Shown here in pieces: positions 26,909 to 45,632 of a DNA stretch of 64,000 nt. The DNA lies in contig JACQWY010000018.1 of the NCBI GenBank assembly GCA_016209015.1, positions 124,001-188,000 of the forward strand, given 5' to 3'. Both the position numbers and the translations under genes were made by a program. Source of the stretch: Gammaproteobacteria bacterium. GTDB lineage: Bacteria; Pseudomonadota; Gammaproteobacteria; Ga0077536. Under the pieces are notes generated by a model, which worked only from the letters and a program-made list of their open reading frames with translations, had not been told where the DNA came from and did no database searches. How positions within the stretch are numbered: position 1 is the first letter of the stretch; every line of letters starts with the position of its first letter.

Positions 26909-27664
26909 TCAAACCGCCTGGTTCACCTGCTTGTAGGCATCGAGGACTTCCTCGACCGTGCCGGATTTCACGACGCTCCCGCTCTGCAGAAGGATTGCCT
27001 TGTTGCACATCGCCTGGATCAGCGCGTCGGAATGCGAGGCGAGGATGAGGATGCTCGCGCGCGCGATCAGCGAATCGACGCGGCGCTTGGCCTTGTCCGC
27101 GAAGCGCGCGTCGCCGGCGCCCAGACCTTCGTCGAGGATCAGGATCTCCGGATCGATCGCCGTCGCGATCGCGAAGCCGAGCCGCGTCATCATGCCCGCG
27201 GAATACGTGCGCACCGGCAGGTTGAGGTATTCGCCGAGCTCGGAGAACTCGACGATGTCGGGCGTCTTGCGATCGATCTCCTCCCACGACATGCCGAGGA
27301 AGAGTCCGCAGTTCACGATATTCTCGTAGCCCGTGTCCTCGGGGTCGAGGCCCGGCGACATGTTGAAGAGCGGCGAGACGTTGCCCTCGATTTTCACGCT
27401 ACCCTGCGTCGGCTCGTAGACGCCCGCGCACACGCGCAGCAGCGTCGACTTGCCGGCGCCGTTGTGGCCGATGAAGCCGACGCGGTCGCCCTCCCGGAAA
27501 TTCAGCGATACGTTGTCGAGCGCGCGCACCACGACGCGCTCCTGGTTGCGGCCTTCGCGCTTGATGAGGCCGCCCGTCGCACTGCGCAACGCGCTGCGGA
27601 AGCTCTTCTGCGCGCCGTAGATCGGAAAGTCGACCGTCGCGTTATCGAGGACGAGGGAGACCAT
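26909..27664 (-). CDS. wzt: Polysaccharide ABC exporter, ATP-binding subunit (Wzt/KpsT type)
   Basis: The 251-residue ATPase has Walker A GHNGAGKST near 83, the signature YSAGMMTRLGFAIA near 155, Walker B ILILDEGLGAGD near 174 and the switch ASHS. Sequence around the nucleotide site is that of exporters of O-antigen or capsule. It lacks the C-terminal carbohydrate-binding domain found in Wzt proteins that recognise a capped chain end, so recognition may be looser, as in KpsT/TagH types. The permease partner is encoded about 1.7 kb upstream, separated by an unknown gene of 507 codons. Confidence 0.92.
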   Translation of the reverse strand: MVSLVLDNATVDFPIYGAQKSFRSALRSATGGLIKREGRNQERVVVRALDNVSLNFREGDRVGFIGHNGAGKSTLLRVCAGVYEPTQGSVKIEGNVSPLFNMSPGLDPEDTGYENIVNCGLFLGMSWEEIDRKTPDIVEFSELGEYLNLPVRTYSAGMMTRLGFAIATAIDPEILILDEGLGAGDARFADKAKRRVDSLIARASILILASHSDALIQAMCNKAILLQSGSVVKSGTVEEVLDAYKQVNQAV

Positions 27665-29384: not shown

Positions 29385-30185
29385 CTACAGCCAGTACGGG
29401 ATCCGCCGGCGGAACCGGCTGAACACGTAGATCATCAGACTCCAGCCCACGACGGCGCTACCCACGACCATGCCGTAGGACCACAGCGACGGCGCCTTGC
29501 CGAGCATCGGTTCGCGCACGACCTCGACGAAGTGATAGAGCAGGTTGAAGTCGACGAAATGCGTCAGGCGCCCCTCGAGCTGGCTCGGCGACCAGAACAC
29601 GGGCGTGACGAACATCGCGACCTGCAGGATGCTGCTGACGACCTGGTGGACGTCGCGATAGCGCGCACAGACAGAGCCGAGCAGCGTCGCGAACCACACG
29701 CCGTTCACGGCGACGAGCGCGAGCCCCGGGATGACGAGCAGCGATTTCAGGTTCACGTCGACGTTCGTGAACAGGGCGACGAGCACGAAGATCGCGAAGT
29801 GGTGGCAGAACACGATGAGGTTCCGCCAGATCGCCGCACACGTCAGGATCGTGTAATTGAATCGCAGTGACTTGACGATCGATTCGCCCGCGGTGAAGAC
29901 GCTGCAGCCCTCGATGATGAGCGTCGAGACGAGCGTCCACGCCAGCATGCCCGAGGTCAGGAACGGCAGGTATTGCTTCGGGTCCTGCTTCCAGAGGTTC
30001 GCCCACACGAAACCGAGCGTGACGATGAACAGCCCCAGCGACATGCTCGTCCAGAACGGGCCGAAGGTCGTGCGCCGGTAACGGCGCTTGATCTCCTGCC
30101 AGCCGAGGCGGCCCCATTTCCGCCACTCCGCGAGTCCCCCCAGGACGTCGCGGCACGCGATTTCGTATTGTGGTGTCATTGTCAT
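29385..30185 (-). CDS. wzm: Polysaccharide ABC exporter, permease subunit (Wzm type)
   Basis: The 266-residue inner-membrane protein has a cytoplasmic amphipathic N-terminus (QEIKRRYRRTTFGPFW), then six hydrophobic helices between about residues 48 and 255, the ABC-2 plan of Wzm/KpsM/TagG. The motif RYRRTTFGPFW is typical of the coupling region. It would form a dimer that, with the ATPase at 26909, passes the undecaprenyl-linked polymer to the periplasm. ATG 30185 and ATG 30179 are both possible starts. The 136-base gap after it is GC-rich and holds a small GCGTG...CACGC hairpin. Confidence 0.92.
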   Translation of the reverse strand: MTMTPQYEIACRDVLGGLAEWRKWGRLGWQEIKRRYRRTTFGPFWTSMSLGLFIVTLGFVWANLWKQDPKQYLPFLTSGMLAWTLVSTLIIEGCSVFTAGESIVKSLRFNYTILTCAAIWRNLIVFCHHFAIFVLVALFTNVDVNLKSLLVIPGLALVAVNGVWFATLLGSVCARYRDVHQVVSSILQVAMFVTPVFWSPSQLEGRLTHFVDFNLLYHFVEVVREPMLGKAPSLWSYGMVVGSAVVGWSLMIYVFSRFRRRIPYWL

Positions 30186-32530: not shown

Positions 32531-32550
32531 TACCTCGCGGTTCTCGCCTC

Positions 32551-33018
32551 TTACTTGACGATGCGTCCGCCGCTCGCGTGCAGGAACAGCGCGAACGCGT
32601 CGTAAGGTGCCAGATCGAGCTCGTTGAGCATCGTGCGGGCATCGAAGGCACCCATGTCCTTGCCCTCGCGCAAGGCGAGGGCGCCGACGGCCTGCGGCGC
32701 GAGCCGGGCCGTGTAGTACGTGCGATGGCAGTGCCCGAGTCCGAGCGCGCCCATCTCGAAATCCATGTGCATGAAGTAACCGAGCTCCCCGACCTCGAGG
32801 TCCAGCTCCTCGACGAGCTCGCGCGCGAGCGCCTCGGCCGGCGATTCGCCCGCCTCCACGCCGCCGCCGAAGCAGCCCCAGTGACCCGGATACCAGATGC
32901 CGGGCTTGTCGTCGCGCTGCTGCAGGAAGTAGCGTCCGTCCGCCGTCTGCAGGATCGCCGCCGCGGCGTCGCCGAACGCGAGCGGCTCACGGGTGTCGAC
33001 GAGGGCCGCGGGCCGCAT
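32551..33018 (-). CDS. NUDIX hydrolase
   Basis: This 155-residue protein carries a Nudix box, GGVEAGESPAEALARELVEE at about 71-90 (G-x5-E-x7-RE-x2-EE), which binds Mg and hydrolyses a nucleoside diphosphate linked to another moiety. The final Gly of the box is replaced (LDL), a mild deviation. In a sugar-nucleotide locus it could act like GDP-mannose mannosyl hydrolase or clean up a side product, but the substrate is unknown. It lies seven bases after the acetyltransferase gene in the same operon. Confidence 0.85.
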   Translation of the reverse strand: MRPAALVDTREPLAFGDAAAAILQTADGRYFLQQRDDKPGIWYPGHWGCFGGGVEAGESPAEALARELVEELDLEVGELGYFMHMDFEMGALGLGHCHRTYYTARLAPQAVGALALREGKDMGAFDARTMLNELDLAPYDAFALFLHASGGRIVK

Positions 33019-33025
33019 CGCCGTC

Positions 33026-33727
33026 TCAGCCCCGCGCCGCGGCTTCGCGCTTCGCGAGCACCACGTCCTCGAGCTGATCGAGGCAGCGCTCCACGTCGCG
33101 GAACGGCAGGCCGGAGAGCTCGAAGAGCTCGAGCTCCCACCAGCGGATGTCGAGCAGGCGCTCGATCACCGCGTCGGAGAAGCGGAACCTGCGGATCGTC
33201 GCCGGCACGCCCGCGACGATCGCGAACGGCGGCACGTCCTTCGTGACCACCGCGCCGGCGCCGATGATGGCGCCGTGGCCGACGTTCACCCCCGGCATCA
33301 CGTTCACGTTGTGACCCATCCACACGTCGCTGCCGAGCGTCACGTGCTGGAACATGTCGGGCGTGCGCTCGAGGCGCTCGAACTCGCGGTATTCCGGCAC
33401 CCACGCGTAAGCCGACGGGTGATACGGGAACTCGTGCGTGCTGAGCCAGTTCGTCGGGTGGTTGAACGGATTGATCGAGGTGCGCGCGCCGATCGCGCAG
33501 TAATTGCCGACCGTCGCGCGCGCCAGGAAGCAGTTTTCGTTCATGCCGAAATAGCGCCCGACCGTCACGTCCGGCCCGAGCTGCGTGCCGCGATTCAGCG
33601 CGATAGGGCCCTGCGTCCAGGCCTTGAAGATCTTCGCGTTCGGCGCGACGTGGATGACGTCGTGCACGACGACCGGCTCCGTCGTGCGGTTCTCGTAGGT
33701 GTCGATGTAGATCTTCTCGTAGCGCAT
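33026..33727 (-). CDS. Left-handed beta-helix acyltransferase
   Basis: The 233-residue protein shows hexapeptide repeats (LGPDVTVGRYFGMNENCF, VGNYCAIGARTS, then GVNVGHGAIIGAGAVVTKDV) and the terminal IVAGVPAT motif of xenobiotic-type (CatB/VatD) acetyltransferases, with the likely catalytic His in NPFNHPTNW. It would transfer an acetyl or other acyl group from CoA to an amino or hydroxyl group of a sugar. It follows the DegT aminotransferase by two bases, so N-acylation of the newly formed amine is the obvious guess. The ATG at 33727 fits the first strand. Confidence 0.88.
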   Translation of the reverse strand: MRYEKIYIDTYENRTTEPVVVHDVIHVAPNAKIFKAWTQGPIALNRGTQLGPDVTVGRYFGMNENCFLARATVGNYCAIGARTSINPFNHPTNWLSTHEFPYHPSAYAWVPEYREFERLERTPDMFQHVTLGSDVWMGHNVNVMPGVNVGHGAIIGAGAVVTKDVPPFAIVAGVPATIRRFRFSDAVIERLLDIRWWELELFELSGLPFRDVERCLDQLEDVVLAKREAAARG

Positions 33728-33729
33728 GT

Positions 33730-34977
33730 TCAAACCGCCATCGCCCGTTCGACTTTCACGATTGCGTTGACGGCGTCGCGCACCTCGCGGTCGCCGTAGT
33801 GCTCGTTCACGTACACCGCGAAGCTCTGATCGCGGATCGCCCGCGCGTTCGGCGTGTCGAAGCCGTCCGCGAGATGGGGTTTGATCCACGGCCAGTCCGC
33901 GACCACGTACTCGTAGTGCGGATTGAGCCCGATCCCTTCGGCGATCACGGCCTCGGCGAACTCGCGCTTCGTGCAGCGGAGCTTCGCGCTGTCCACGATC
34001 ACCGGGAAGACGAACGGCGAATCGGCCGGCGAGTAGGCATAGGGCCGGCAGAGCTTCGACTGCTCCTTGAGATGAAAAGCGAACTCCGAGACGAAGGACA
34101 GCCGACCGACGATCGTCGCGTTGAGGCGCTTCAGCGAGGCGATGCCGATCGCGCAGGAGATCTCGTCCGTGTGCAGGTTCAGCGCCGGGAACAGGAAGCC
34201 GTTCGGATTGCGATCGTCGAAGCCCGGGAGCCAGCTCGGCTTGCCGCGATCGGCGTGCGCGAGCGCGCGGCGGAAGAGCTCCAGATCGCGCGAGTAGACG
34301 ACGCCGCCGCAGGCGCCCGTGATGTGCGCCTTGCGGTACATCGTCGAGAACGCCGCGATGTCGCCGTAGCTGCCGACGAACTGGCCGCCGAGCTTCGCGC
34401 CGTGCGCCTGGCTGCAGTCCTCCACGACGCGGATGCCGTGGCGGCGCGCGACGGGCATGATGCCGGCGATGTCGCAGGCCTGGCCGATCGAATGCACGAT
34501 GACCGCGCCTACGGTCTCGGGCGTGATGCGCGCCTCGAACTCGGCGGCGCCCGTGTTGTAGCTGCCCGGCCGGCTGTCGATGAGACGGGGCTTCAAGCCG
34601 TTGAGGATGATCGCGCTCAGCGTGCCGGGATCGGTGATCGGCGAGACGAGCACCTCGCCGCCCTTCGGCAGCTCGAGTGCGGCGATCGCGACGTAGAGCG
34701 CGGCCGTCCCCGTCGCGACCGCGTCCGCATAGCCGCCGCTCAGGGTGTCGACGAAGGCCTCCGTGTAGCGCTTCTCGAAATGGCCCTGGTAGCCGGGATC
34801 GGCGTTGCGCTCGCGATAGTAGGCGACGACCTCGTCGATCATCGCGACCTCGGCCTCGCCGAAAGCCTGGCGCGCGGGCAGCGGATCCGGGCGCACCTTC
34901 GGGCCGCCGCGCACGGCGAGCTCGGCCTTGCGGGCGGCTTCGTCGTCGGCGTCGTCGATCTGTCGATAGCCAGACAT
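33730..34977 (-). CDS. DegT/DnrJ/EryC1 family aminotransferase
   Basis: This 415-residue PLP enzyme belongs to the sugar aminotransferase family. It has the AVATGTAALYVAI phosphate-binding segment near 86-98, ED-x-SQAHG near 184 and the likely Schiff-base lysine in MYRKAHITGACGG near 214. It transfers an amino group, usually from glutamate, to a keto sugar or cyclitol. The family usually acts on nucleotide-linked keto sugars. A long N-terminal tail of about 30 residues precedes the core. ATG 34977 overlaps the nucleotidyltransferase stop by one base. Confidence 0.9.
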   Translation of the reverse strand: MSGYRQIDDADDEAARKAELAVRGGPKVRPDPLPARQAFGEAEVAMIDEVVAYYRERNADPGYQGHFEKRYTEAFVDTLSGGYADAVATGTAALYVAIAALELPKGGEVLVSPITDPGTLSAIILNGLKPRLIDSRPGSYNTGAAEFEARITPETVGAVIVHSIGQACDIAGIMPVARRHGIRVVEDCSQAHGAKLGGQFVGSYGDIAAFSTMYRKAHITGACGGVVYSRDLELFRRALAHADRGKPSWLPGFDDRNPNGFLFPALNLHTDEISCAIGIASLKRLNATIVGRLSFVSEFAFHLKEQSKLCRPYAYSPADSPFVFPVIVDSAKLRCTKREFAEAVIAEGIGLNPHYEYVVADWPWIKPHLADGFDTPNARAIRDQSFAVYVNEHYGDREVRDAVNAIVKVERAMAV

Positions 34978-35714
34978 CAGCGTCCTCCGGCCGCCCGCAA
35001 CACCGCGGGTGCCGTCGCAGGGAATTCGCGCTCCGCGGCGGCGAGGCTCTCGAGCGTGCCGATGTCGCGGTGATAGAGCGCGTTGTGATACGTGCACATG
35101 CGGCCGAGGTAATGCGGCAGCACCTCGGTGCTTAGATCGACGATCTCGCGGCCCAGGCCCGCGATGAACGCGACGACCTCGGGCTCGAAGAGGTAGACCG
35201 CGGCGTTCGCGCGCGTGCCGGGCGGGTTCGCGACTTTCTCGTGGAACGCGACGACCCGGCCGGATTCGTCCTCTTCGACGATGCCGCAGCTCTGCGGAAC
35301 GTCGGTGTCGAACGTCATCATGGTGATCGCCGTGCCTGCCGGCCGCCCCCGATGGCGGGCGAGGAAGGCCGTCGCGTCGAAGAGCGTGAGATTGTCCGCG
35401 TGCGCGACGAGGAAGGGCTCGTCGCCGAAGAACGCGCGGTTCTTCAATACCGTGCCGCCGGTGCCGAGCAGCACATCCTCGTGGACGAGCTCGACGCGCT
35501 CGCGCCACGGCGACGTCGCGACGAACGCGCGCACCGGCTCCGGCAGGTAATGCGTGTTGACGAGCGCGCGCTCGACCGCGTCCGGCGCGAACAGCAGCTC
35601 GAACCACCAGCCGAGCAGCGGCCGGCCGCGGATCTCGACGAGGCATTTCGGCACGCGCTCGGTGAGCGGCCGCAGCCGCGTCCCGAAACCGGCGGCGAGC
35701 AGCAGCGCCTTCAC
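34977..35714 (-). CDS. Sugar-1-phosphate nucleotidyltransferase, HddC/RmlA-like
   Basis: The 245-residue enzyme has the nucleotidyltransferase signature LAAGFGTRLRPLT (7-19) with VPKCLVEI following, and HADNLTL near 104. The short length and RPLTERVPKCL pattern match the group that includes D-glycero-D-manno-heptose 1-phosphate guanylyltransferase. With the SIS isomerase, kinase and phosphatase encoded nearby it could make a GDP- or CDP-activated heptose-like sugar. It begins with GTG at 35714, which overlaps the TGA of the kinase fusion. Confidence 0.87.
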   Translation of the reverse strand: MKALLLAAGFGTRLRPLTERVPKCLVEIRGRPLLGWWFELLFAPDAVERALVNTHYLPEPVRAFVATSPWRERVELVHEDVLLGTGGTVLKNRAFFGDEPFLVAHADNLTLFDATAFLARHRGRPAGTAITMMTFDTDVPQSCGIVEEDESGRVVAFHEKVANPPGTRANAAVYLFEPEVVAFIAGLGREIVDLSTEVLPHYLGRMCTYHNALYHRDIGTLESLAAAEREFPATAPAVLRAAGGR

Positions 35715-37210
35715 GCGCGGAGCTCCGCGATCAGCTCTTCACTGGTGAGCGGCGTATTGCCGACGCGCCCGACCTGGCAGGCCGCGGCCACGGAGCCGAG
35801 ATACGCGCTCCGCCAGATGTCGCCCTCGATCGCGAGCGCCATCGAGGCGCAGGTCAGCAGCGAATCGCCCGCGCCCGAGACGTCCTTCGGCGCGCCGTTG
35901 AACGCCGGCAGGCGGTCCGTGCGGAAGCAGCCGGTCTTGTCCGGCGCATGGATGAGCAGGCCCTCCGCGCCGAGCGTGACGAGCACGCGCTCCGCCGCGG
36001 CCTTCAGGCGCAGCGCTTCGGCGAGACCGACGAGGCCCGCGCTGAAATCGCGCACCGACAGGCGCGCCTCGTGCTCCGTCGGCGTGAGCAGCCGCATGCC
36101 CTTGAAGCGCGACACGTCGCCGACCTGCGAGGACGACTGGCTGTCCGCGACCATCATCACGTCGTGGCGATTCGCGACCGCACAGATGCGATCGACGAGG
36201 AGCTGCGGCAGGCAGCCGTAGGTGAAGTCCGAGAAGATGACGAGATTCGCCTGCTCGACGTCGCCCGCGATGCGCTCGAAGAGCTCGTCCGCCTGATCGT
36301 TGCTGATCGCGTGCTGGCGCAGATGGCTCACGCGCAGCAGCGTCTTGCCGTTCGCGCGGTAGCGCTGCTTGAGCGTGGTCGGACGGCTGTCGTCGGTCAG
36401 GAACTGGTGATCGACGCCGTAGCCGCGCAGCGTGTCGGCCGCGAACTGCGCCGTCTCGTCCTGGCCCGTGACGCCGAAATAGCTGACCTTGGCGCCGAGA
36501 CCGCGCGCGTGCGCCGCGACGATGCCGGCGCCGCCGATGAACAGATCGCGCTTGATCGGCGTGACGACGATCGTCGGATCCTCCTGCGACATGCCGAGCG
36601 CTTCGCAGTTGATGTACTCGTCGACGATCAGATCCCCGATGACCACCACGCGCAGCTCCGAGAGCCGGCGCACGAGGCCCACGAGATCGTTGAAGTCGAA
36701 GCCGTGGCGTTGCGGGAAATCCGCGGGCTTCATGATGCTCGAGAAGTTCGTCTCGAGCAGCTCGCGCTGCAGGAGATCGAGCGAGGAGAAGCGGATCTCG
36801 CCCGAGCTGAAGAGCAGCTTGCCGTCGTAGGCCTCGACCGCCGCGAGCTCGGGGTTGAACGTCGTCTCGTGCTCCTTGCCCTTCACGACGACCGCGGGCT
36901 CGAGCATCGCGATGAAGTCCTCGGGCAGGGAATGCATGATGAACGCGTAATCGACCACGCCGATCGAGCGCACGCCCTCGAGACGCAGCTCCGCCGGCAG
37001 CAGCGCGCCGCCGGCCGCGTCGGGCAGGACACCGACGACGACGAAATCGCCGCAGTCCGCGGCGAAGTTCAGGAGTCGCAGATGCCCCGGGTGGACGAGG
37101 TTGAAATTGCCCGAGACGAACACGACGCGATCCTGGCCGGCGCGGCGGCGGATCTCCTCGACGACGTCCGCATCGGATGCGGCCGGGGTGAAATACTCTG
37201 CCGGTTTCAT
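35711..37210 (-). CDS. Nucleotidyltransferase-PfkB kinase fusion, HldE-like with domains in reverse order
   Basis: This 499-residue protein joins a cytidylyltransferase-type domain at the N-terminus (SGNFNLVHPGHLRLL, HxGH at 40-43, to about residue 150) to a PfkB sugar kinase (VVIGDLIVDEYI near 189, VSGAGDSLL near 445). E. coli HldE has kinase first and transferase second, so this is the same pair inverted. It probably phosphorylates C1 of a heptose 7-phosphate-like sugar and may also activate a sugar 1-phosphate. A separate nucleotidyltransferase follows, so one of the two may serve another step. Both domains keep their key motifs. Confidence 0.88.
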   Translation of the reverse strand: MKPAEYFTPAASDADVVEEIRRRAGQDRVVFVSGNFNLVHPGHLRLLNFAADCGDFVVVGVLPDAAGGALLPAELRLEGVRSIGVVDYAFIMHSLPEDFIAMLEPAVVVKGKEHETTFNPELAAVEAYDGKLLFSSGEIRFSSLDLLQRELLETNFSSIMKPADFPQRHGFDFNDLVGLVRRLSELRVVVIGDLIVDEYINCEALGMSQEDPTIVVTPIKRDLFIGGAGIVAAHARGLGAKVSYFGVTGQDETAQFAADTLRGYGVDHQFLTDDSRPTTLKQRYRANGKTLLRVSHLRQHAISNDQADELFERIAGDVEQANLVIFSDFTYGCLPQLLVDRICAVANRHDVMMVADSQSSSQVGDVSRFKGMRLLTPTEHEARLSVRDFSAGLVGLAEALRLKAAAERVLVTLGAEGLLIHAPDKTGCFRTDRLPAFNGAPKDVSGAGDSLLTCASMALAIEGDIWRSAYLGSVAAACQVGRVGNTPLTSEELIAELRA

Positions 37211-37240
37211 ACCCTTCCCTCCATGCTCATGGCCGCGGCC

Positions 37241-38293
37241 TCAGTCCATCCTGACCAGGCAACGGCCGCTGATGCTGCCGTCGCGCACGCCGGCGATGCC
37301 GGCGTTGACGTCCGCGAGCGGCACGCGCTCTGTGATGAGATTCGCGAGCTTGATGCGCCCGGCCTTCAGGAGCGCGGCATAGCGCGGGATGTCCTCCTGC
37401 GGAATCGCCTCGCCGCCGTGCGAGCCGGACAGCCGTTTGCCGAAGTGCAGCGGCAACGTGTAGAGCGTGCTGTTCGCGCCCTTCTTCGGCACGCCGACGA
37501 GGATGACGCGGCCCTGCGCCTTCGCGAGCTCGTAGCCCATCTCGATGATCGCGGGCACCCCCGTGTTGTCGATGAAGCAGTCGACGCCGCCCCCGCCCAG
37601 GATTTCCGCGATCGCGGCCTTCGCGTCGACGTCGCGGCTGTTGATGCAATGCGTGGCGCCGAGCTCGCGGGCGAGCGCGAGCTTGTTGTCGTGGAGATCG
37701 ACCGCGATGACGGGATACGCCGAGACGAGCGCCGCGGCCTGCACGATGTTGAGTCCGACCCCGCCTGCGCCGAACACGACCACCGACTCGCCGATCGTCA
37801 GCTTCGCGTTGTTGACGACGACGCCGAAGCCCGTCGTCACCGCGCAGCCGAACAGCGCCGCGACTTCGAGATCGCTGTCCGCCGGGATGCACGTCAGGCG
37901 GTTCTCCGCGACGATCGCGTGATCGTTGAACGTCGTCACCCAGCCCGCATTCACGCGCCTGCCGTCCCAGGTGTAGTGCGGCGGCCGGGCCTCGATGCCG
38001 AGGCTCTTCCGCCAGTGGAGCACGACCTTGTCGTCCGGCTGCACCTGCGTGACGCCGGGGCCGATCGCGAGCACCGTGCCCGAGCCTTCGTGGCCGAGCA
38101 GATGCGGCAGGAATTTGTCCGGACCCTTCGCGCCGTCGATCTCGCCGAGCTGCGAGCCGCAGATGCCGCTGTAGTGGATTTTCACCAGTACCTGGCCGAC
38201 GTCGAGCGTCTTCGGCAGCTCGACGCGCGCGACCACGAGCGGCTGGCGCTGCTCGACGAGGATGGCGGCCTGCATGGATGTCGGGAGCGTCAT
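37241..38293 (-). CDS. Zinc-type medium-chain alcohol dehydrogenase
   Basis: This 350-residue MDR protein has the catalytic zinc ligand region YSGICGSQLGE near 42, HLLGHEGSG near 64 and the NAD motif GAGGVGLNIV near 174. The four-cysteine lobe that binds the structural zinc in most alcohol dehydrogenases is replaced by HWRKSLGIEARPPHY, so only the catalytic zinc is expected. It probably oxidises a polyol or sugar hydroxyl to a ketone, which would feed the DegT aminotransferase. The ATG at 38293 is the first in frame, ten bases from the methyltransferase stop. Confidence 0.87.
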   Translation of the reverse strand: MTLPTSMQAAILVEQRQPLVVARVELPKTLDVGQVLVKIHYSGICGSQLGEIDGAKGPDKFLPHLLGHEGSGTVLAIGPGVTQVQPDDKVVLHWRKSLGIEARPPHYTWDGRRVNAGWVTTFNDHAIVAENRLTCIPADSDLEVAALFGCAVTTGFGVVVNNAKLTIGESVVVFGAGGVGLNIVQAAALVSAYPVIAVDLHDNKLALARELGATHCINSRDVDAKAAIAEILGGGGVDCFIDNTGVPAIIEMGYELAKAQGRVILVGVPKKGANSTLYTLPLHFGKRLSGSHGGEAIPQEDIPRYAALLKAGRIKLANLITERVPLADVNAGIAGVRDGSISGRCLVRMD

Positions 38294-38303
38294 GGTCCCT
38301 CTC

Positions 38304-38975
38304 CTATTCGAAAAAGATGAACGAGTGGTCGCCGGTGTAGCCGGTCTGCTCGAACCACCACGCCCATTCCTCGGGCGTGTTGAACGCCTCGCACGTCACC
38401 TGCCAGTACAGCAGGTTCGTCTTCTCGACCTCGTTGCGGTAGGACTCGACGCAGAGATACTTCGGGCCTTTGCCGACGCGCTGCATTTCGCGGAGCGCGC
38501 GGTCGAGGTCGTAGCAGTGCAGGTTGTGCAGCGTGTTCAGGGAGTACACGAAATCGAAATGCCCGTCGGGCCAGGGCAGCTCGGTCGCGCTGCCGAGCGT
38601 CGTGCGATCCTTGATCTCCTCCTTCGCGTTCTCGAGCGCGTAGGCCGAGACGTCGATGCCGTAGATCTCGATCCCGGGCACGACCTTCGTGAAGTCGAAC
38701 ATCAGGAAGCCCTTGCCGCAGCCGACGTCGAGCACCTTGTCGCCCGCCTTCAGGCCGTAGTGGTCCGCCATCGCCTTCGCGACCTTCTCCCAGCGTCCTT
38801 CCATGTAGCGATAGCCGCCGTAGTTGATGCGCCGATCGCCGTCCCAGTAGTCGTAGGCCCACTGCTTCGCGAGCTCCGCGGCCTTCGCCTTCGGATACTC
38901 GGGATCGTTCACGCGCGCGAGGTAGTCGCGCTGCGTGCTCTTGTGAACGACGGACATGAAGTCGATGTAAGCCAT
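38304..38975 (-). CDS. SAM-dependent methyltransferase
   Basis: The 223-residue enzyme has the class I fold with motif I VLDVGCGKGFLMFDF near 84-98, an acidic IYGIDVS at the end of strand 2 and LPWPDGHFDFVYS as motif IV. It probably methylates a sugar of the repeat unit or its precursor. The unusually aromatic N-terminus (QWAYDYWDGDRRINYGGYRYM) may form the substrate lid. It follows the kinase-like gene by four bases. The methylated position is unknown. Confidence 0.85.
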   Translation of the reverse strand: MAYIDFMSVVHKSTQRDYLARVNDPEYPKAKAAELAKQWAYDYWDGDRRINYGGYRYMEGRWEKVAKAMADHYGLKAGDKVLDVGCGKGFLMFDFTKVVPGIEIYGIDVSAYALENAKEEIKDRTTLGSATELPWPDGHFDFVYSLNTLHNLHCYDLDRALREMQRVGKGPKYLCVESYRNEVEKTNLLYWQVTCEAFNTPEEWAWWFEQTGYTGDHSFIFFE

Positions 38976-38979
38976 GAGG

Positions 38980-39987
38980 TCACCAGAGTCGTTGAATGAG
39001 TTCGAACGCGCGCTCCGCTTTCGCGAGCTGCGCGGCCTGCCGCGCGGCGGTGTCGGACGCGGGATCGGCGAAACGCCGGCGCGCCGCGGCCTCGGGCAGG
39101 AATTCGTTGAGCATGATGCAGCACCATTTGAGCGCAAACGCGGGCTCGAGCAGCGCGGCGCGGAATTCGAGCGCGCGCGCGTCGGACACGATGCCGAGCA
39201 GCGCGTCGAGGAACCTCCCGCGATGGGCGCGATCGACCGGCACCGCGGGCTGGCTGAAGAAATCGCCGAGCGTCTTCGCCGGATCGTCCCAGCCCGCGTA
39301 CTCGAAATCGATGAACGCGAGCGTGCCGTCGGCGCGGCGCAGCGCGTTGTGGAAACCGAAGTCTGAAGGCGAGAGGCAGCGATCGGCCGTCGCAATCGGC
39401 ACTGCAGCGTCGTGGCCCGCGGCGGCGGCGCGCGCGAGCATCTCGGCGCGGCGGCGCGTCCAGTCCGCGGCGAGCACGTCTGCGAAGCGGATCGCCGCGG
39501 CGTGCACGGCGCTCTCCTCGGCGAGGCGGCCGAGGCGCGCGATCCGGCCATCCACGCTTGCGAGGTGATCGGCAATCGAGAAGCAGCCCTCGGAGGCGAC
39601 CGGCAAGGCGGCGGCGCGCGCGGCGCGATCCGCCGGGTTCAGCGCGCCCAGGAAATCCGCGGCGGCGGCGACGTCCGCGGCCGTGACCGCGCCCGGCGGC
39701 ACTTTCTCGCCAGCGACGAATTCGTAGAGCGCGAGATGCGACTCCGCAGCGCGCGACAGCGGCCGCGGGACGCAGGCGATGCCGAGTCCGGCCGCATAGC
39801 TCAGGAACGACCACTCGGCGTGCAGGCGATCGCGCGTGTCGCTCGGGTGGTGGTAGTAGCTCTTCGCGATGTAGCTCGCGCCGTCCGCGGCCGTAACGCG
39901 GAACACGCGGTTGTTGCCGCTCACCGCGCAGGGCGCGATGTCGAGCGCGCGCCCGCCGCCCGGCACGAGCTCGGCGATGCGGGCCAT
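38980..39987 (-). CDS. Aminoglycoside-phosphotransferase-fold kinase
   Basis: This 335-residue protein belongs to the APH/choline kinase fold. It has SGNNRVFRVT as the nucleotide loop, YIAKSYY with the ATP lysine near 50, and the catalytic block SPSDFGFHNAL followed by IDFEYAGWDDP near 236. The usual HGD is SDF here, but the aspartate, asparagine and metal-binding DFE are kept, so it may be active. It overlaps the upstream HAD gene by ATGA. A kinase for a sugar or choline-like decoration is the likely role; an aminoglycoside resistance role is not suggested by the setting. Confidence 0.82.
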   Translation of the reverse strand: MARIAELVPGGGRALDIAPCAVSGNNRVFRVTAADGASYIAKSYYHHPSDTRDRLHAEWSFLSYAAGLGIACVPRPLSRAAESHLALYEFVAGEKVPPGAVTAADVAAAADFLGALNPADRAARAAALPVASEGCFSIADHLASVDGRIARLGRLAEESAVHAAAIRFADVLAADWTRRRAEMLARAAAAGHDAAVPIATADRCLSPSDFGFHNALRRADGTLAFIDFEYAGWDDPAKTLGDFFSQPAVPVDRAHRGRFLDALLGIVSDARALEFRAALLEPAFALKWCCIMLNEFLPEAAARRRFADPASDTAARQAAQLAKAERAFELIQRLW

Positions 39988-40613
39988 CACGGCTTCAGAT
40001 CCGTCCATCGCCCGCACATCCAGGTCTGTAGCTCGTCCCAGCCCGCGATCGCCGCCAGACCATTTGCTGCCGCCGCGTGATGACGGTCGGGATCGAAGAG
40101 CAGCGCCGTCGTGCCGGCCGGGAAGCTCTGCGCTTCGAGGATTTCCGGCAGATCGTCGAGGAACAGATCGCAGCCGATCGCGCCGATGCGCGCGAGCTTC
40201 TCCTCCTTCGTCAATTCGAAGAAGACCGACGGCGGCGCGATCAGCGGCGCGCCCGCCGCGACGAGATGATGCCGGACCCAGGCGCGGGCCGCGGCATGCA
40301 GATCGTATTGCGGCCCGAGGAACGGATGCTTCGTCTTGTGGCTCACGATCGCGAGACCGAGGCCCGCGCCGCGCGCCCAGGCCATGAACTCGAGCGCGCC
40401 CGGATAGGCGACGGCCTCGTCCATGCGCGCCCCGTACACATAGCCCTGCATCTCGGTCCAAACTTCCTCCCGGCCGATCGCCCGCAGATGATTGCGCACC
40501 GCGATCTTCGTGACGGGCAGGTCCGCCGGAATCACGCCCTGCTCGAGCGCGACCTTATGGAACAGCCCATCGTAGTTCACGATGGTGTTGTCGAAGTCGA
40601 GACCGAGCCGCAC
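39987..40613 (-). CDS. HAD-superfamily phosphatase-like protein
   Basis: The 208-residue protein opens with LDFDNTIV, the DxDxT motif I at 6-10, and later has VSHKT (motif II, near 92) and FLDDLPE (motif IV, near 151). It resembles HAD hydrolases that remove phosphate from sugar phosphates. In a heptose-type pathway this would be the GmhB step between kinase and nucleotidyltransferase, though GmhB itself has a different length and zinc loop. It starts with GTG at 40613, nine bases after the transketolase subunit. Confidence 0.83.
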   Translation of the reverse strand: MRLGLDFDNTIVNYDGLFHKVALEQGVIPADLPVTKIAVRNHLRAIGREEVWTEMQGYVYGARMDEAVAYPGALEFMAWARGAGLGLAIVSHKTKHPFLGPQYDLHAAARAWVRHHLVAAGAPLIAPPSVFFELTKEEKLARIGAIGCDLFLDDLPEILEAQSFPAGTTALLFDPDRHHAAAANGLAAIAGWDELQTWMCGRWTDLKP

Positions 40614-40622
40614 GACGGAAGC

Positions 40623-41576
40623 TCAGCGCGCGCTCGCGACGGTGCGGCGGCCACCGGTGCCGCTCTCGGCGAGGACGCGCGAGACGACGTTCTCCGCGGT
40701 CAGGCCGAAGAGCCGGCGCGCGTATTCCTGCGAGCCGATTTCATGCATGAACGCATCGTCCGTGCCGAACGCGAGCAGGCGGGCCGCATTACCGCCGCGC
40801 GCCGCGAGCCATTCCGCCACGCTGCCGCCGAAACCGCCGAGGCGGCTGTGCTCCTCGAGCGTGACGACGAGCGGATAGCGCGTGAAAACTTCCTCGAGGC
40901 GCGCGCCGTCGAGGGGCTTCACGGTGTGGAAGCTCTCGACGCGCGCCGAGACGCCGGCCTGGCCGAGCGCGTCCGCGGCGTCGAGCGCGACGGAGATCAT
41001 GTTGCCGGTGCTGAGCAGCGCGACGTCCGCGCCGTCGCGAACGGTGATCGCGCGGCCGATCGCGAAGTCCGGCGGCGTCTGGTGGATGATGGGCTCGCCC
41101 TTCTTGCCGATGCGCATGTAGACGGGGCCGTCGTGCTTCAGCGCGGCACGCAGGCCCGCCCGGAGCTCGACCGCATCGCAGGGGCACAGCACCGTCATCT
41201 CCGGCAGCACGCGCAAGAGCGCGATGTCTTCGCAGGAGTGATGCGTCGGGCCGAGCTCGGCATACGAGAGGCCGGCACCCGTGCCGACGATGATCACCGG
41301 CGCGCGGTGATAGCAGGCGTCGACGCGGATCTGCTCGAGGCAGCGCGTGGTCGTGAACGGCGTGATGGTGTAGACGACGGGACGCAGGCCCGAGAGCGCC
41401 ATGCCGGCCGCCATGCTCATCATGTTCGCCTCGGCGACGCCGCAGTTGAAGAAGCGCTTCTCGTCGCCCGCCTTGAACTTGTCGAACAGCTTGTTGCCGA
41501 TGTCGCCCGAGAGCAGGCAGACGCGCGGGTCTTCCGCACCCAGTTTCGTGATCTCGTCGGCGAATGCGTTTCTCAT
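40623..41576 (-). CDS. Transketolase, C-terminal subunit
   Basis: This 317-residue protein matches the pyrimidine-binding and C-terminal domains of transketolase. FFNCGVAEANMMSMAAGMAL near 42-61 contains the Glu that activates thiamine diphosphate, and GLSYAELGPTHHSCEDIALL follows. It is half of a split enzyme whose other half is encoded directly upstream with a 4-base overlap. Within a glycan locus a dedicated transketolase is unusual. It could move a two-carbon ketol unit to make sedoheptulose 7-phosphate or a longer ketose for the local isomerase. Confidence 0.9.
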   Translation of the reverse strand: MRNAFADEITKLGAEDPRVCLLSGDIGNKLFDKFKAGDEKRFFNCGVAEANMMSMAAGMALSGLRPVVYTITPFTTTRCLEQIRVDACYHRAPVIIVGTGAGLSYAELGPTHHSCEDIALLRVLPEMTVLCPCDAVELRAGLRAALKHDGPVYMRIGKKGEPIIHQTPPDFAIGRAITVRDGADVALLSTGNMISVALDAADALGQAGVSARVESFHTVKPLDGARLEEVFTRYPLVVTLEEHSRLGGFGGSVAEWLAARGGNAARLLAFGTDDAFMHEIGSQEYARRLFGLTAENVVSRVLAESGTGGRRTVASAR

Positions 41577-42409
41577 GCCGCCACCCCCAGCTCGCGCTTG
41601 GCCGCGACGACCTCGTCGGCCGACGGGATCCGGTAATGCCAGTTGTTGTCGTCCTCCATGAAGGACACGCCCTTGCCCTTGACGGTGTGGGCGATGATCG
41701 CGCGCGGCTTGCCGCTGTGCGGCCGCGTGAGCGCGCCGAGCACGGCCTCGACGTCGTGGCCGTCGACTTCGACCGCGTCCCAGCCGAACGCACGCCACTT
41801 CTCGGCGAGCGGATCGAGCGCCATCACTTCCGCGCTGCGGCCCGTCGCCTGCCACTTGTTGAAGTCGACGACGATCGTCACGCGATCGAGCTTCTGGGCC
41901 GCGGCGAACATCGCGCCCTCCCAGATCGAGCCCTCGTTGCATTCCCCATCGGAGAGCAGCGCGTAGACGTGGTAGTCCTCACCGCGGATGCGCGCGGCGA
42001 GCGCCATGCCGAGCCCCATCGGGAAGCCGTGGCCGAGCGAGCCCGTCGCGGCCTCGATGCCGGCGAGCTTGTCCGGGGTCGGCGGATGCTCGGCGAAGAG
42101 ACTGCCGTCCTCGCCGTAGGTGTCGAGCATGCTCTCAGGATAGAAGCCCTTCAGCGCGAGCACCTGGAACAGCGCAGGCGCGCCGTGGCCCTTGCTGAGA
42201 ATGAATCGATCGCGATCCGCGGCGCGCGGCTGTGCGGGGTCGATGCGCAGCACGCCGTAGTAGATCGCAACGAGGATGTCGACGCACGAGAGGCAGGAAC
42301 CGAGGTGCGGGGTCTGCGTCTTGTGCGAGGTTTCGATGATCCGCGCGCGGATCTCCGCGGCGAGCTCGCGGAGCCGGGCGGGGTTCGGGGCGTCGATGGC
42401 GCTGGCCAT
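41573..42409 (-). CDS. Transketolase, N-terminal subunit
   Basis: The 278-residue partner carries the thiamine-diphosphate motif LLSDGECNEGSIWE near 145, followed by VVDFNKWQ (the GDG...N pattern with Ser for the first Gly). HLGSCLSCVDILVAIY near the N-terminus is also typical. ATG 42409 was chosen over GTG 42418 because CAGGAG lies eight bases upstream of the ATG. The pair would form a heterotetramer. Split transketolases of this kind also occur in other bacterial sugar and antibiotic pathways. Confidence 0.9.
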   Translation of the reverse strand: MASAIDAPNPARLRELAAEIRARIIETSHKTQTPHLGSCLSCVDILVAIYYGVLRIDPAQPRAADRDRFILSKGHGAPALFQVLALKGFYPESMLDTYGEDGSLFAEHPPTPDKLAGIEAATGSLGHGFPMGLGMALAARIRGEDYHVYALLSDGECNEGSIWEGAMFAAAQKLDRVTIVVDFNKWQATGRSAEVMALDPLAEKWRAFGWDAVEVDGHDVEAVLGALTRPHSGKPRAIIAHTVKGKGVSFMEDDNNWHYRIPSADEVVAAKRELGVAA

Positions 42410-42431
42410 GGGCTTCACTCCTGGGGTCCGT

Positions 42432-43433
42432 TCAAGGCTTGTGCTGATAGTCGAAGGGCAGCGCCTTCAAGGCATCGAGGTGCGCGTCCACCCAGGCGAT
42501 GCACTCGTCGAGGCCCTGATCGAGCGAGATTTCGTCCCGCCAGCCGAGCTGCTCGCGCAGCTTCGTGCTGTCGAGCATGTAGGCGGCGTCCTTGCCGAGG
42601 CGCTCGGCGTCGACTTCCGCGACGTCTTCGAGACGCACGCCGAGCTTCGCGCAGATGCGTTCGACGAGCTCGCGGATGGAGACGATCTCGTTCGTCGAGA
42701 TGTGATAGGTCTCGCCGAGCGGGGCGCGCTCCATGATGTCCCAGGTCGCGCTCGAGACGTCCTTCATGTGGATGAACGCGCGGCGCGACACGCCGCCGCC
42801 GTGCAGCTTCAATTTCTTGCCCAAGCGGATGAAGAGGATCGTGCGCGGGATGATGCGATAGAGCTGCTGGCCCGGGCCGTAGACGTTCGCGGCGCGCGTG
42901 AAGACGACCGGGAACCGATAGGCGTCGAAATAGGACTTCAGGCTCATGTCGCCCGCGGCGCGCGAGACGGCATAAGGCGTGCTCGGATTGAAGTGCTGGT
43001 CCTCGCGGATGAAGCCGCCGTCCGTGCTGCCGTAGACCTCGGGGGTCGTCACGTGCACGTAGCGGCTCAGGAAATCGCACTGCCGGAGCTGCTCGTGGAG
43101 CCGCACCGTCGAGACCACGTTCGTCATGAACCAGTGATCGGGATTTTTCCAGCTCTCGCCGACCATGGACTGCGCGGCGAAGTTCACGACGTGCGCGATC
43201 CGCTCGCCGCGGATCAGGTGCATGATTTCCGCGAGGTGGTGGTTGAGGTCGTAGGCGTAGAAACGGAAACCCGCGTCCTTCCCGCCCCAGCGGTACGGCA
43301 GGAAGGCCTGATGCGGCTCGCAGGAGCGGCTCATGCCGACGACTTCCACGCCGCGATCGAGGAGCGCCGAGACGAAGCTCGCGCCGGAGAAGGAATTGCT
43401 GCCGATGACGGCGACCTTGTCGATGCCGGCCAT
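42432..43433 (-). CDS. NAD-dependent sugar epimerase/dehydratase
   Basis: This 333-residue extended SDR has the nucleotide loop GSNSFSGASF near 10 and resembles dTDP-/GDP-sugar 4,6-dehydratases and CDP-sugar synthases (TPEVYGSTDGGF and RAANVYGPGQQLYRIIPR). The catalytic motif reads YAVSR, with Arg in place of the usual Lys of YxxxK, which could alter or reduce activity. ATG 43433 has GGGAG seven bases upstream and was preferred to TTG 43439. It lies two bases after the SIS gene. Substrate unknown. Confidence 0.85.
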   Translation of the reverse strand: MAGIDKVAVIGSNSFSGASFVSALLDRGVEVVGMSRSCEPHQAFLPYRWGGKDAGFRFYAYDLNHHLAEIMHLIRGERIAHVVNFAAQSMVGESWKNPDHWFMTNVVSTVRLHEQLRQCDFLSRYVHVTTPEVYGSTDGGFIREDQHFNPSTPYAVSRAAGDMSLKSYFDAYRFPVVFTRAANVYGPGQQLYRIIPRTILFIRLGKKLKLHGGGVSRRAFIHMKDVSSATWDIMERAPLGETYHISTNEIVSIRELVERICAKLGVRLEDVAEVDAERLGKDAAYMLDSTKLREQLGWRDEISLDQGLDECIAWVDAHLDALKALPFDYQHKP

Positions 43434-43435
43434 GC

Positions 43436-44029
43436 TCAAGCTCCCGCCTGCGGGCGATTCTGATAGAGGTACTGCATCAGCATGTGGCCGATCGCCATCT
43501 GCACGTCCTCGGCGATCTGCATGTCGTTCACGGCGGCATGGATCGCACAGTCCGCGAGCGCCTTCGCCTTGCCGCCGGTGTAGCCGAGGATGGCGTAGCT
43601 GCGCACGCCCATGGTCCTGGCCTGTTCGAGGACACGCAGGATGTTCGGCGAGTTGCCGCTCCCGGACAGCGCGATCACGACGTCGCCCGGCCGCGCGAGC
43701 ACGGCGAGCTGCAGGGAGAAAATCTGCTCGTAGCCCTCGTCGTTCGCGAGGCAGGTCAGCACCGAACCGTTCGCCGGCAGCGCCGTCACGCGCAGACCCG
43801 AGCCCGGGGTCTTCGAAATGCCGTAGAGGAAGTCGTTCGCGAGGTGCACCGCGTTGCCGGCACTGCCGCCGTTGCCGCAGAGGAACACCTGGCGGCCGCT
43901 CTGCCAGCAGTCGAGCAGCTCGGCGCCGAGCGCCGCGACCGGCGCCCAGTCGAGCTCCTGCAGAACGCCGTTCAGCCGGGCCGTGTAAGCGCGGAACAGG
44001 GCTTCGGGTGCGAGCTGCGGGGCATTCAT
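43436..44029 (-). CDS. SIS-domain isomerase, GmhA-like
   Basis: The 197-residue protein has the two SIS phosphosugar loops of phosphoheptose isomerase: LCGNGGSAGNAVHLANDF near 50-67 and IALSGSGNSPNILRVL near 109-124. GmhA converts sedoheptulose 7-phosphate to D-glycero-D-manno-heptose 7-phosphate and has almost the same length. Placed between two epimerases and just before a split transketolase, it is the likely entry enzyme of the local sugar pathway. It could also act on a related ketose phosphate. Start and stop overlap both neighbours closely. Confidence 0.87.
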   Translation of the reverse strand: MNAPQLAPEALFRAYTARLNGVLQELDWAPVAALGAELLDCWQSGRQVFLCGNGGSAGNAVHLANDFLYGISKTPGSGLRVTALPANGSVLTCLANDEGYEQIFSLQLAVLARPGDVVIALSGSGNSPNILRVLEQARTMGVRSYAILGYTGGKAKALADCAIHAAVNDMQIAEDVQMAIGHMLMQYLYQNRPQAGA

Positions 44030-44964
44030 TTGATGACCTCTTTCTGCATCCAGCGCAGGTTGTAGAAGCGGTCCTCGTCCTTCAACTCGCCGGCGCGGAA
44101 CTTCGCGGTGATTTCGTTGATCGCGTCCTGCACCGTCTTCCTGGGCTTGAAGCCCGCGGCGAGCAGCTTGTCGGAGTTCACGCGGTAGGAGCGCGGATCG
44201 TTCGACTCGGTCACGACGATCTCCGCACCGACGGCGTTCGCGACGCGCTCGGCGATCTCCAGCAGCGAGAGGTTCTCGAAGCCCGCGTTGTAGACGCCGG
44301 TGACTTCGGGATGATCGAGCAGGAAGAGATAGACCTCGGTGATGTCCTCGATGTGGATGTTCGGGCGCGTCTGCGCGCCGCCGAACACCGTGATGCGGCC
44401 CTTCGCGAGCGCCTGCATCGTCAGCATGTTCACCGCGACGTCGAGGCGCATGCGCGGCGAGAGCCCGCAGACCGTCGCCGGGCGCACGATCTGCACGCTC
44501 ATGCGATCGGCGTAGCTCAGCATCACGCGCTCACCGACCATCTTCGTCTTGTTGTATTCGGAGAGCGGTCGGAGCTCGAGGTCTTCCGTCACCTGCGGCT
44601 CGTCCGTCACGCCGTACACGCTGCCCGAGGACGCGTAGAGCATGCGCTCGATGCCGAGGCGCGCGGCGCGGTCCGCGAGCTGCATGGTGGCGAGCGCGCT
44701 GATCTCCCAGGTGAGCTGCGGATCGAGATCGCTGCAGGGATCGTTCGCGACGGAGGAGAGATGGATGATCGCGTCGACGCCGTCGAGCGGGATGGCATCG
44801 ATGTCGCGCACGTCGCCGCGCACGACCGTCAGCTTCGGATGCGGCTGCAGATAGTTGCCGAACCACATGATGTCGAAGGCCGTCACCTCATAGCCGCGCG
44901 CGAGCAGCTTCGGGACGAGGACCGTGCCCTTGTAGCCGCAGGCCCCTGTTACGAGCAGTTTCAT
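44026..44964 (-). CDS. NAD-dependent sugar epimerase/dehydratase
   Basis: The 312-residue extended SDR has GACGYKGTVLVPKLL near 7-21 (a GxxGxxG variant with Lys) and a normal catalytic YNKTK near 140, with SSGSVYG providing serine. It resembles UDP-glucose 4-epimerase-like enzymes often found beside GmhA-like genes in heptose-containing glycan loci. It would change stereochemistry or oxidation at one carbon of an activated or phosphorylated sugar. It overlaps the SIS gene by four bases and the regulator by one. Confidence 0.86.
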   Translation of the reverse strand: MKLLVTGACGYKGTVLVPKLLARGYEVTAFDIMWFGNYLQPHPKLTVVRGDVRDIDAIPLDGVDAIIHLSSVANDPCSDLDPQLTWEISALATMQLADRAARLGIERMLYASSGSVYGVTDEPQVTEDLELRPLSEYNKTKMVGERVMLSYADRMSVQIVRPATVCGLSPRMRLDVAVNMLTMQALAKGRITVFGGAQTRPNIHIEDITEVYLFLLDHPEVTGVYNAGFENLSLLEIAERVANAVGAEIVVTESNDPRSYRVNSDKLLAAGFKPRKTVQDAINEITAKFRAGELKDEDRFYNLRWMQKEVIK

Positions 44965-45632
44965 CAATTCTTCTCCGATGTTTCCAATGCCAGGTCCTGA
45001 GATGCGCCGTCCCCGTCGTCCGCCTCGGGCAGCGCGGCGAGCGGCCGCACGATGCCGGGCACGATGACGCGCGCCGGACCGAAGTAGTCGACGAGGTTCG
45101 TGTAGAGTCCGTCGTGGGGCGCGAGCTTCGTGAAGATCGCGGCATCCGCGGCGCCGACGTCGAGCAGCCGCGTCCACACCGGCCGGCCGACGAAGCGGCT
45201 CTGCGCCGAATCCGGATCGAACGTGCCGATGAGCTCGAGCTCGAAATCCGCGGCGCGCACGGAGCCGATCTCCGCGAGCTCCGACACTCCGCCGAACAGC
45301 ACGCGGGCCGCACCGCGCTCGCGGCAGGCCGCGAACGCCGCCTCCATCGCCCCGCTCGCCTGGCGGTAGAACGCGAATTGCGCGCTCAGGAATTCCGCGG
45401 TCAGACGGCTCTTCTCGGCGAAGCCCTTCGGCGTGAGGTAGTAGAGGTAGCGGTTCGCGGGCGCCTGGGTGATCTTCACGAGCCCCTTGCGGACGGAACG
45501 GCGCAGGCAGTAGTTCGCGAGGCCGAGCGCGACGCCGAGTCGATCCGCGAGGTGACGTTGCGTGATGTCACTGCGGGCTTCGATCTGCTGCAGCAGCTCA
45601 AGGGTCAACGATTCTTCGCGGTCGAGTTTCAT
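44964..45632 (-). CDS. MarR-like winged-helix regulator with a C-terminal Rossmann-like domain
   Basis: The first 90 residues form a winged helix (EESLTLELLQQIEARSDITQ, then the recognition segment LGVALGLANYCLRRSVRKGL) as in the MarR-type regulators of exopolysaccharide loci. From about 108 to 222 there is a second domain, opening with RVLFGGVSELAEI and continuing LIGTFDPDSAQ and FVGRPVW. This is a strand-Gly-rich loop-helix-strand pattern like the nucleotide-binding N-domain of PglD-type enzymes. It may therefore sense a nucleotide, cofactor or sugar nucleotide. Two palindromes just upstream fit autoregulation. It heads the sugar-pathway half of the locus. Confidence 0.8.
   Translation of the reverse strand: MKLDREESLTLELLQQIEARSDITQRHLADRLGVALGLANYCLRRSVRKGLVKITQAPANRYLYYLTPKGFAEKSRLTAEFLSAQFAFYRQASGAMEAAFAACRERGAARVLFGGVSELAEIGSVRAADFELELIGTFDPDSAQSRFVGRPVWTRLLDVGAADAAIFTKLAPHDGLYTNLVDYFGPARVIVPGIVRPLAALPEADDGDGASQDLALETSEKN

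Follow-up and report, generated by a model that had tools for sequence, protein, structure and literature searches.

Bradyrhizose is a ten-carbon bicyclic sugar described as the sole O-antigen component, with an aldehyde that closes onto O4, O5 or O9; the title of a synthesis cited in the same source calls it inositol-fused (PMC9912281). The non-immunogenic O-antigen that it forms in photosynthetic Bradyrhizobium plant symbionts is dispensable for nodulation, and in Bradyrhizobium ORS285 an insertion in gdh abolishes it, the mutants being devoid of bradyrhizose peaks; the locus is an uninterrupted run of eleven genes, most of them for sugar modification and one of them dTDP-glucose 4,6-dehydratase-like (PMC4743980). 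Here we analyze a string of genes in a 64,000-nucleotide stretch (hereafter the window) of contig JACQWY010000018.1 from a gammaproteobacterium of the Ga0077536 lineage. We consider it rather likely that this string is a bradyrhizose-type cluster, whose core enzymes produce bradyrhizose or something close to it, as a nucleotide-activated sugar that has more than seven carbons, is C-branched or carbocyclic and goes into a surface polysaccharide.

The other relevant systems attach carbon branches to keto-sugars with the help of thiamine diphosphate (ThDP). E1-type enzymes place a C2 branch onto keto-sugars at C3 or C4, according to feeding, knockout and one in vitro study with analogues (PMC12247030), and the pairs AviB1/AviB2 and Pau11/Pau12 have been proposed for C4 acetyl branches (PMC4753412). 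Ketone-using transketolases have been proposed for miharamycin and amipurimycin, with 13 candidates, all of them from Streptomycetes and none characterized in vitro (PMC12247030).

The eleven-gene cluster and its probable Bradyrhizobium counterpart

The string consists of 13 genes running on the minus strand from 44964 to 33026, with intergenic gaps of -4 to +30 bp and a GC content at third codon positions of 0.84-0.94. Its conserved core is formed by 11 tightly packed genes, 44964 to 34977 (the short names EpiA, SdrB and revHldE were coined in this analysis):

44026..44964, minus: EpiA, NAD-dependent epimerase/reductase-type short-chain dehydrogenase/reductase (SDR); Pfam Epimerase 124.5 bits; 71-76% identity in 11 other complete loci
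43436..44029, minus: SIS-domain isomerase, GmhA-like; TIGR00441 115 bits (cut-off 209.45); aligns with phosphoheptose isomerases
42432..43433, minus: SdrB, dTDP-glucose 4,6-dehydratase-like SDR; TIGR01181 196.9 bits (cut-off 365.1); 63% identical to the gene of genome G567
41573..42418, minus: TktN, N-terminal half of a split transketolase, ThDP-binding; Transketolase_N 128 bits; best PDB match 6yak
40623..41576, minus: TktC, C-terminal half of the split transketolase; Transket_pyr and Transketolase_C; best PDB match 6yaj
39987..40613, minus: HAD phosphatase; PF12710 24.5 bits, under the cut-off of 27
38980..39987, minus: APH-fold small-molecule kinase; PF01636 43.4 bits
38304..38975, minus: SAM-dependent methyltransferase (MT); Methyltransf_31 77.8 bits; 59-77% identity in 11 other complete loci
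37241..38275, minus: Zn-dependent medium-chain alcohol dehydrogenase (ADH); ADH_zinc_N 92.9 bits, ADH_N 48.7 bits
35711..37210, minus: reversed HldE (revHldE); CTP_transf_like in residues 32-118 (HxGH), then PfkB in 187-486 (GAGD)
34977..35714, minus: NTPt, sugar-1-phosphate nucleotidylyltransferase, MurU/RmlA/HddC-like; NTP_transferase 100.8 bits; family scores far from any cut-off

An earlier note on this DNA, made from sequence alone, had seen here a candidate undescribed sugar pathway. The genes it named are all present on the minus strand, although its list, correct in every listed gene, omitted the methyltransferase and the APH-fold kinase. The word "undescribed" is not supported, since a Bradyrhizobium cluster that was genetically tagged in 2016 as the bradyrhizose locus (PMC4743980) matches this eleven-gene set. 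The note had also proposed looking for the same set in other genomes. We tabulated 26 other loci, each fetched for holding a relative of at least one cassette gene, and found all 11 genes in 11 of them (L034, L050, L124-L129 and L132-L134; 32-77% identity per protein), which excludes a chance assembly. The largest gap does not exceed 407 bp in ten of these complete loci, while L133 has a 3.9-kb gap; in L034 revHldE-NTPt is on the opposite strand.

The link to Bradyrhizobium comes from a family search with SdrB around a Rhodopseudomonas genome, which covered 391 genomes and found SdrB at E <= 1e-60 in 22. Neighborhoods were fetched for 12 of the 22, and one more genome (G278) entered via L030. 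Seven of the 12, with genomes of 7.3-8.5 Mb that we infer from size and family to be Bradyrhizobium, hold the eleven genes uninterrupted and in one identical order. The genome G567, a single contig of 7,797,098 bp, has a 427-aa open reading frame (ORF) with the Wzy_C (O-antigen ligase) domain at 1932527-1933810, and just upstream of it are relatives of rfaD, rfaE and rfaF scoring over family cut-offs. Its SdrB ortholog is 43,784 bp from the Wzy_C ORF, within exactly eleven contiguous genes (SdrB, TktN, SIS, APH and MT were placed by tblastn), and scores 195.2 bits with TIGR01181; the next-best SdrB-like genes of the 111-kb stretch are merely 24% and 22% identical. Gene count, gene type, ligase length, neighbors and distance all fit, and hence G567 is likely ORS285 or a close strain, with gdh likely being the SdrB ortholog. 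All eleven families are matched in the window and in the G567 locus, on which the comparison with the published cluster is based. The blocks EpiA-SIS-SdrB-TktN-TktC and HAD-APH-MT are kept between Bradyrhizobium and the window. As judged from the sequences, the window operon fits a kind of cluster that is genetically tagged and biochemically uncharacterized.

The split transketolase and the enzymes at its place

TktN and TktC align nearly full length with 6yak/6yaj and have the classical ThDP-binding and catalytic architecture of transketolases. In all 19 loci compared (the window and 18 SdrB loci from whole genomes, the loci having been chosen by SdrB), a split ThDP enzyme is encoded on the same strand within 4.5 kb of SdrB, being of the transketolase type in 14 loci and of the E1 alpha/beta type in five. 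The Rhodopseudomonas cassette, read here from L130, L131 and L135, has relatives of SIS, EpiA, SdrB, MT, ADH, revHldE and NTPt, with an E1-type pair (E1_dh; Transket_pyr and Transketolase_C) at the place of TktN/TktC, and about 7 kb away a ThDP enzyme of the decarboxylase family (YerE superfamily). Formation of sedoheptulose 7-phosphate is not known from E1-type enzymes. A C4-branched O-antigen sugar has been reported for R. palustris CGA009 (PMC9912281). Sister loci encode both E1-type pairs and ThDP enzymes of the decarboxylase family (YerE superfamily); for the Rhodopseudomonas genes, these labels were checked with Pfam.

In five of the loci the place beside SdrB is taken by a pair of the E1 type, which is known for branching keto-sugars; as far as protein comparison can tell, the most likely role of the transketolase is accordingly to join a C2 unit to a keto-sugar, not to supply sedoheptulose 7-phosphate. 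The acceptor site is in line with ketol transfer to a keto-sugar. In E.coli transketolase, D469 is one of the residues whose change opens other acceptors (PMC5073344, PMC7661550). Among 30 cassette TktC sequences (L024 was set aside as a DXS-type match), this position is occupied by Leu in 26, including the window, and by Ala in three, one is unreadable, and none has Asp, while the transketolase and DXS of the host itself retain it. Of the 36 sequences labelled cassette TktC, 34 form one clade (support 0.907), outside of which are L004 and the DXS-type L024.

A wider scan, with seven revHldE sequences against named genomes, gave at least 560 loci, of which the best 80 were taken. Both transketolase halves are encoded in 30 of the 80, an E1-type pair in 15 and a relative of the Rhodopseudomonas decarboxylase-family enzyme in eight, the classes overlapping; among the 44 of these loci that are at least 20 kb long, the numbers are 23, 11 and 8, respectively. 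The transketolase-bearing loci, mostly from metagenome-assembled genomes (MAGs), include Bosea, Desulfobacteraceae, Campylobacterales, Bdellovibrio, Acidimicrobiaceae and Verrucomicrobia. Relatives of the cluster thus reach far beyond Bradyrhizobium, with E1-type and transketolase-type enzymes swapped. In the class of the host, SdrB was found at E <= 1e-90 in seven of 369 genomes, the host among them.

In four loci (L073, L075, L076 and L079) from other Bradyrhizobium (B. manausense, B. campsiandrae and BR13661), the cassette is diverged: its transketolase pair is at about 40% identity, and a nucleotide-sugar dehydrogenase-like gene is present. In L062, from a Thermoplasmata archaeon MAG, there are relatives of revHldE, MT, EpiA and DegT, hence reversed HldE proteins may reach into Archaea.

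A possible route to the sugar and its alternatives

The proposed order of reactions, like the product, is conditional. SIS, the kinase and nucleotidyltransferase of revHldE and a phosphatase would give an activated aldose, possibly heptose-like; the two SDRs would convert it to a 4-keto form. The split transketolase would then move a two-carbon ketol onto the ketone, leaving a tertiary alcohol, as suggested by the E1 swap, the neighborhood and the change at the acceptor site. ADH and MT would complete the skeleton, and HAD, the APH-fold kinase and NTPt would re-activate the product. The surface polysaccharide is probably exported by the neighboring Wzm/Wzt. The ring closures described in PMC9912281 imply that C4 of bradyrhizose is bonded to C3, C5, C9 and a hydroxyl, being a tertiary alcohol, and this is what addition onto a 4-keto-sugar leaves.

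A more detailed scheme, which we regard as possible but doubtful, counts the ten carbons as 7+2+1: a heptose from SIS and revHldE, a ketol at C4 and a methyl group. Here SdrB and EpiA would open the C4 ketone, and TktNC would add HOCH2-CO- to give C9; ADH would oxidize C7 to an aldehyde, onto which C8 would close by aldol reaction, producing an inositol ring fused to the sugar; MT would supply the tenth carbon, and HAD-APH-NTPt would re-activate the bicyclic sugar. The main alternative to this scheme is a hexose with two C2 additions.

Single enzymes were compared at the level of motifs and folds. All 18 aligned SIS sequences have Asp in the place of the catalytic Glu of GmhA. EpiA retains the Ser-Tyr-Lys motif, and revHldE retains HxGH and GAGD in its two domains (alignment of seven relatives). 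The four HAD motifs are all found in the alignment (the L054 row, not a HAD, is left out). By fold, HAD comes closest to 5'(3')-deoxyribonucleotidases (Z 15.7-17.9) and matches a heptose 1,7-bisphosphate phosphatase less well (Z 12.5); the nucleotidase-like match does not fix the substrate. In APH, the catalytic Asp and Asn are invariant in six sequences; by fold, N-acetylhexosamine 1-kinase and choline kinases tie at Z about 20-21, Foldseek places corramycin phosphotransferase first, and sugar 1-kinase and choline kinase functions are not separated. HAD and APH are fused into one ORF in L015 (17279-18964) and L059 (12488-14125), which suggests consecutive action.

Several observations weigh against the bradyrhizose-type interpretation or single parts of it. 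The 12 window-type SdrB sequences displayed (four near-identical Bradyrhizobium rows, L126, L127, L129 and L134, are left out) have TPE and YxxxR in place of TDE and YxxxK, the usual motifs of dTDP-glucose 4,6-dehydratase (RmlB); judging by these residues, SdrB may not be a plain dehydratase, and 4-keto formation is not assured. The TktC of L004, from a Solidesulfovibrio plasmid, is encoded beside revHldE, SIS, HAD and APH relatives and retains Asp, and, according to PMC12247030, the use of a keto-sugar has been shown for no transketolase. Ten of the 44 loci of at least 20 kb have no ThDP gene; in L022, L031 and L037 the cassette genes are at the very edge of the locus, L020 is, judged by its length, contig G272:C36 of a genome holding the other nine genes elsewhere, and six loci remain unexplained. 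In L026, a locus of the revHldE scan, a 70% identical SdrB is encoded right where the contig ends, and no ThDP gene is visible. On the Bradyrhizobium side, the gdh mutation may be polar according to its authors (PMC4743980), the identity of G567 and gdh is an indirect match, and the window does not follow the Bradyrhizobium order, with revHldE-NTPt placed downstream and ADH moved. A reaction-centre match (PF00124) was found in five of the seven Bradyrhizobium-size cluster genomes and in all three Rhodopseudomonas-like genomes tested, and neither in the cluster-bearing G322 and G313 nor in two genomes without an SdrB match; with two of the seven lacking it, the occurrence of the cluster is not strictly coupled to photosynthesis. 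Finally, as the gene string of the window is extended by DegT and an acyltransferase, the final sugar of its host may differ from bradyrhizose.

The alternatives differ in the role given to the transketolase. In the model built on the earlier note, the transketolase forms sedoheptulose 7-phosphate or, alternatively, a linear ketose phosphate of greater length, and SIS converts this to an aldose phosphate; kinase, phosphatase and NTPt then yield an activated linear heptose, tailored by the epimerases, DegT and the acyltransferase. Transketolases normally make sedoheptulose 7-phosphate, SIS and revHldE resemble GmhA and HldE (relatives that do suggest the heptose-like precursor foreseen in the note), and DegT and the acyltransferase belong to the same gene string. 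This role of the transketolase fits badly, however, and the reading as a whole is quite unlikely: the host already has a housekeeping transketolase, an E1-type pair stands at this place in five of the 19 loci, the acceptor-site Asp is lost, the tailoring genes are outside the conserved eleven, and in Bradyrhizobium the cluster is linked to a bicyclic sugar of ten carbons (PMC4743980, PMC9912281). Chain elongation, in which TktNC extends a heptose or another aldose by C2 at its aldehyde rather than at an internal ketone, SIS isomerizes the resulting linear nonulose or longer ketose and the ring closes later, would agree with aldehydes being the normal transketolase acceptors (PMC5073344, PMC7661550) and with the GmhA-type isomerase of the set. 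Still, we find it unlikely, as it alone leaves no tertiary alcohol of the kind deduced at C4, ketone branching is what E1-type enzymes, which occupy this position in some loci, are known for, and SdrB is a constant neighbor of the ThDP pair, though the loci were chosen by SdrB.

The operon could also combine two pathways, SIS-revHldE-NTPt making a heptose-like sugar and SdrB, the transketolase, HAD, APH, MT and ADH another residue. In agreement with this, in genomes G105 and G272 revHldE-NTPt is separated from the other nine genes, which follow the exact window order on a different contig, and several loci have revHldE-NTPt with no ThDP gene in view. We hold such a division to be very unlikely, since both genomes contain both parts, SIS goes with the nine-gene block, and the bradyrhizobial O-antigen is a homopolysaccharide (PMC9912281) tied to one contiguous eleven-gene block. 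In G272, revHldE-NTPt shares its contig with Wzm/Wzt genes and with a gene related to that of the 402-aa protein described below (L012), while the nine other genes are at L161.

The bradyrhizose-type interpretation turns a list of genes into a testable order of enzymes, with the split transketolase as the maker of the C-C bond. In the literature searched, which leaves most subscription papers uncovered, four papers name bradyrhizose (PMC4743980 and PMC9912281, the latter covered in part, among them); the word transketolase occurs in none of them, and the assembly of bradyrhizose appears unexplained there. The match to the bradyrhizose locus is new, and so are the known range of the cluster and the argument for the role of the transketolase. 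If correct, the interpretation would mean that a transketolase uses a keto-sugar in the synthesis of a bacterial polysaccharide, a reaction so far just proposed for Streptomyces nucleosides (PMC12247030), and, if the 7+2+1 scheme holds as well, a new transketolase-based route to carbocyclic sugars across several phyla.

Neighboring genes, the host and related systems

Other genes of the string and its surroundings are:

33730..34977, minus: DegT/DnrJ aminotransferase, outside the conserved eleven; PF01041 166 bits; 1-bp overlap with NTPt
33026..33727, minus: hexapeptide acyltransferase, outside the conserved eleven; Hexapep 39.1 bits; 2-bp gap
44964..45632, minus: MarR-type EPS (exopolysaccharide)-associated regulator, head of the gene string; TIGR04176 73.9 bits (cut-off 88)
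29385..30179, minus: Wzm-type ABC exporter permease; PF01061; NF050109 238.2 bits (cut-off 380)
26909..27664, minus: Wzt-type ABC exporter ATPase; PF00005; NF050108 295.1 bits (cut-off 400)

The aminotransferase and acyltransferase that, according to the earlier note, would tailor the sugar belong to the string but are not part of the conserved set. The string continues with DegT, hexapeptide acyltransferase, Nudix and radical SAM/SPASM genes (31445-34977, minus strand; gaps of -1 to 62 bp), and in L005, a relative from Azospirillum oryzae, a DegT pair, radical SAM and Nudix genes likewise follow the cassette. Beside Wzm/Wzt, the minus strand encodes proteins of 490 aa (27725-29197) and 402 aa (30210-31418) with no Pfam or NCBIfam matches; their relatives are found in other revHldE loci, with four matches to the 490-aa protein in L093. 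Upstream, a gene for an MBOAT acyltransferase and a partner without a Pfam match (46792-48168 and 45748-46788, both minus) perhaps constitute an O-acetylation module. Five of the seven Bradyrhizobium-size genomes (L124, L125, L126, L129 and L134) encode MBOAT homologs with 42-43% identity close to their eleven-gene cluster.

Apart from the cassette, the host encodes a kinase-first HldE, on a different contig, as well as a phosphoheptose isomerase, a transketolase and a DXS, the last three each scoring above a family cut-off. The operon thus represents a dedicated pathway, as the earlier note had supposed in postulating a non-standard route to an activated sugar. Compared with the ADP-L-glycero-D-manno-heptose pathway (GmhA-HldE-GmhB-HldD), the SIS and HldE domains of the cassette are relatives, but the order of the HldE domains is reversed, the HAD protein (no NCBIfam matches) is not recognized as GmhB, and equivalog cut-offs are missed: gmhA 115 against 209.45, rfaE_dom_I 195.9 against 345, rfaE_dom_II 49.9 against 181.5, and heptose_epim 61.6 against 274.6 bits. 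The ordinary isomerases of G567 (191.9) and the host (189.1) likewise fall below the gmhA cut-off, though the host protein passes NF010546. The missed cut-offs, the reversed domains and the separate host HldE and phosphoheptose isomerase rule out the canonical lipopolysaccharide heptose pathway; the GDP-D-glycero-D-manno-heptose pathway is ruled out as well (HddC model NF049965, 49.6 against 300).

The split transketolase of Carboxydothermus hydrogenoformans (6yak/6yaj, PMC7661550) shares with the window the two-chain layout and is the best PDB match, but retains the acceptor-site Asp, unlike TktC of the window. The known ThDP systems branching keto-sugars are YerE (yersiniose), E1-type pairs (aldgamycin, kibdelomycin) and, as proposed, the split transketolases of miharamycin (PMC12247030). 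The window resembles them in that a split ThDP enzyme is encoded next to an SDR of the dehydratase type within a polysaccharide locus, and differs in that the pair is of the transketolase type and the loci are those of bacterial polysaccharides. The Bradyrhizobium bradyrhizose cluster has the same eleven enzyme families, the window SdrB being 63% identical to the gene matched with gdh, and the window extends beyond it with the additional DegT, acyltransferase, Nudix and radical SAM genes.

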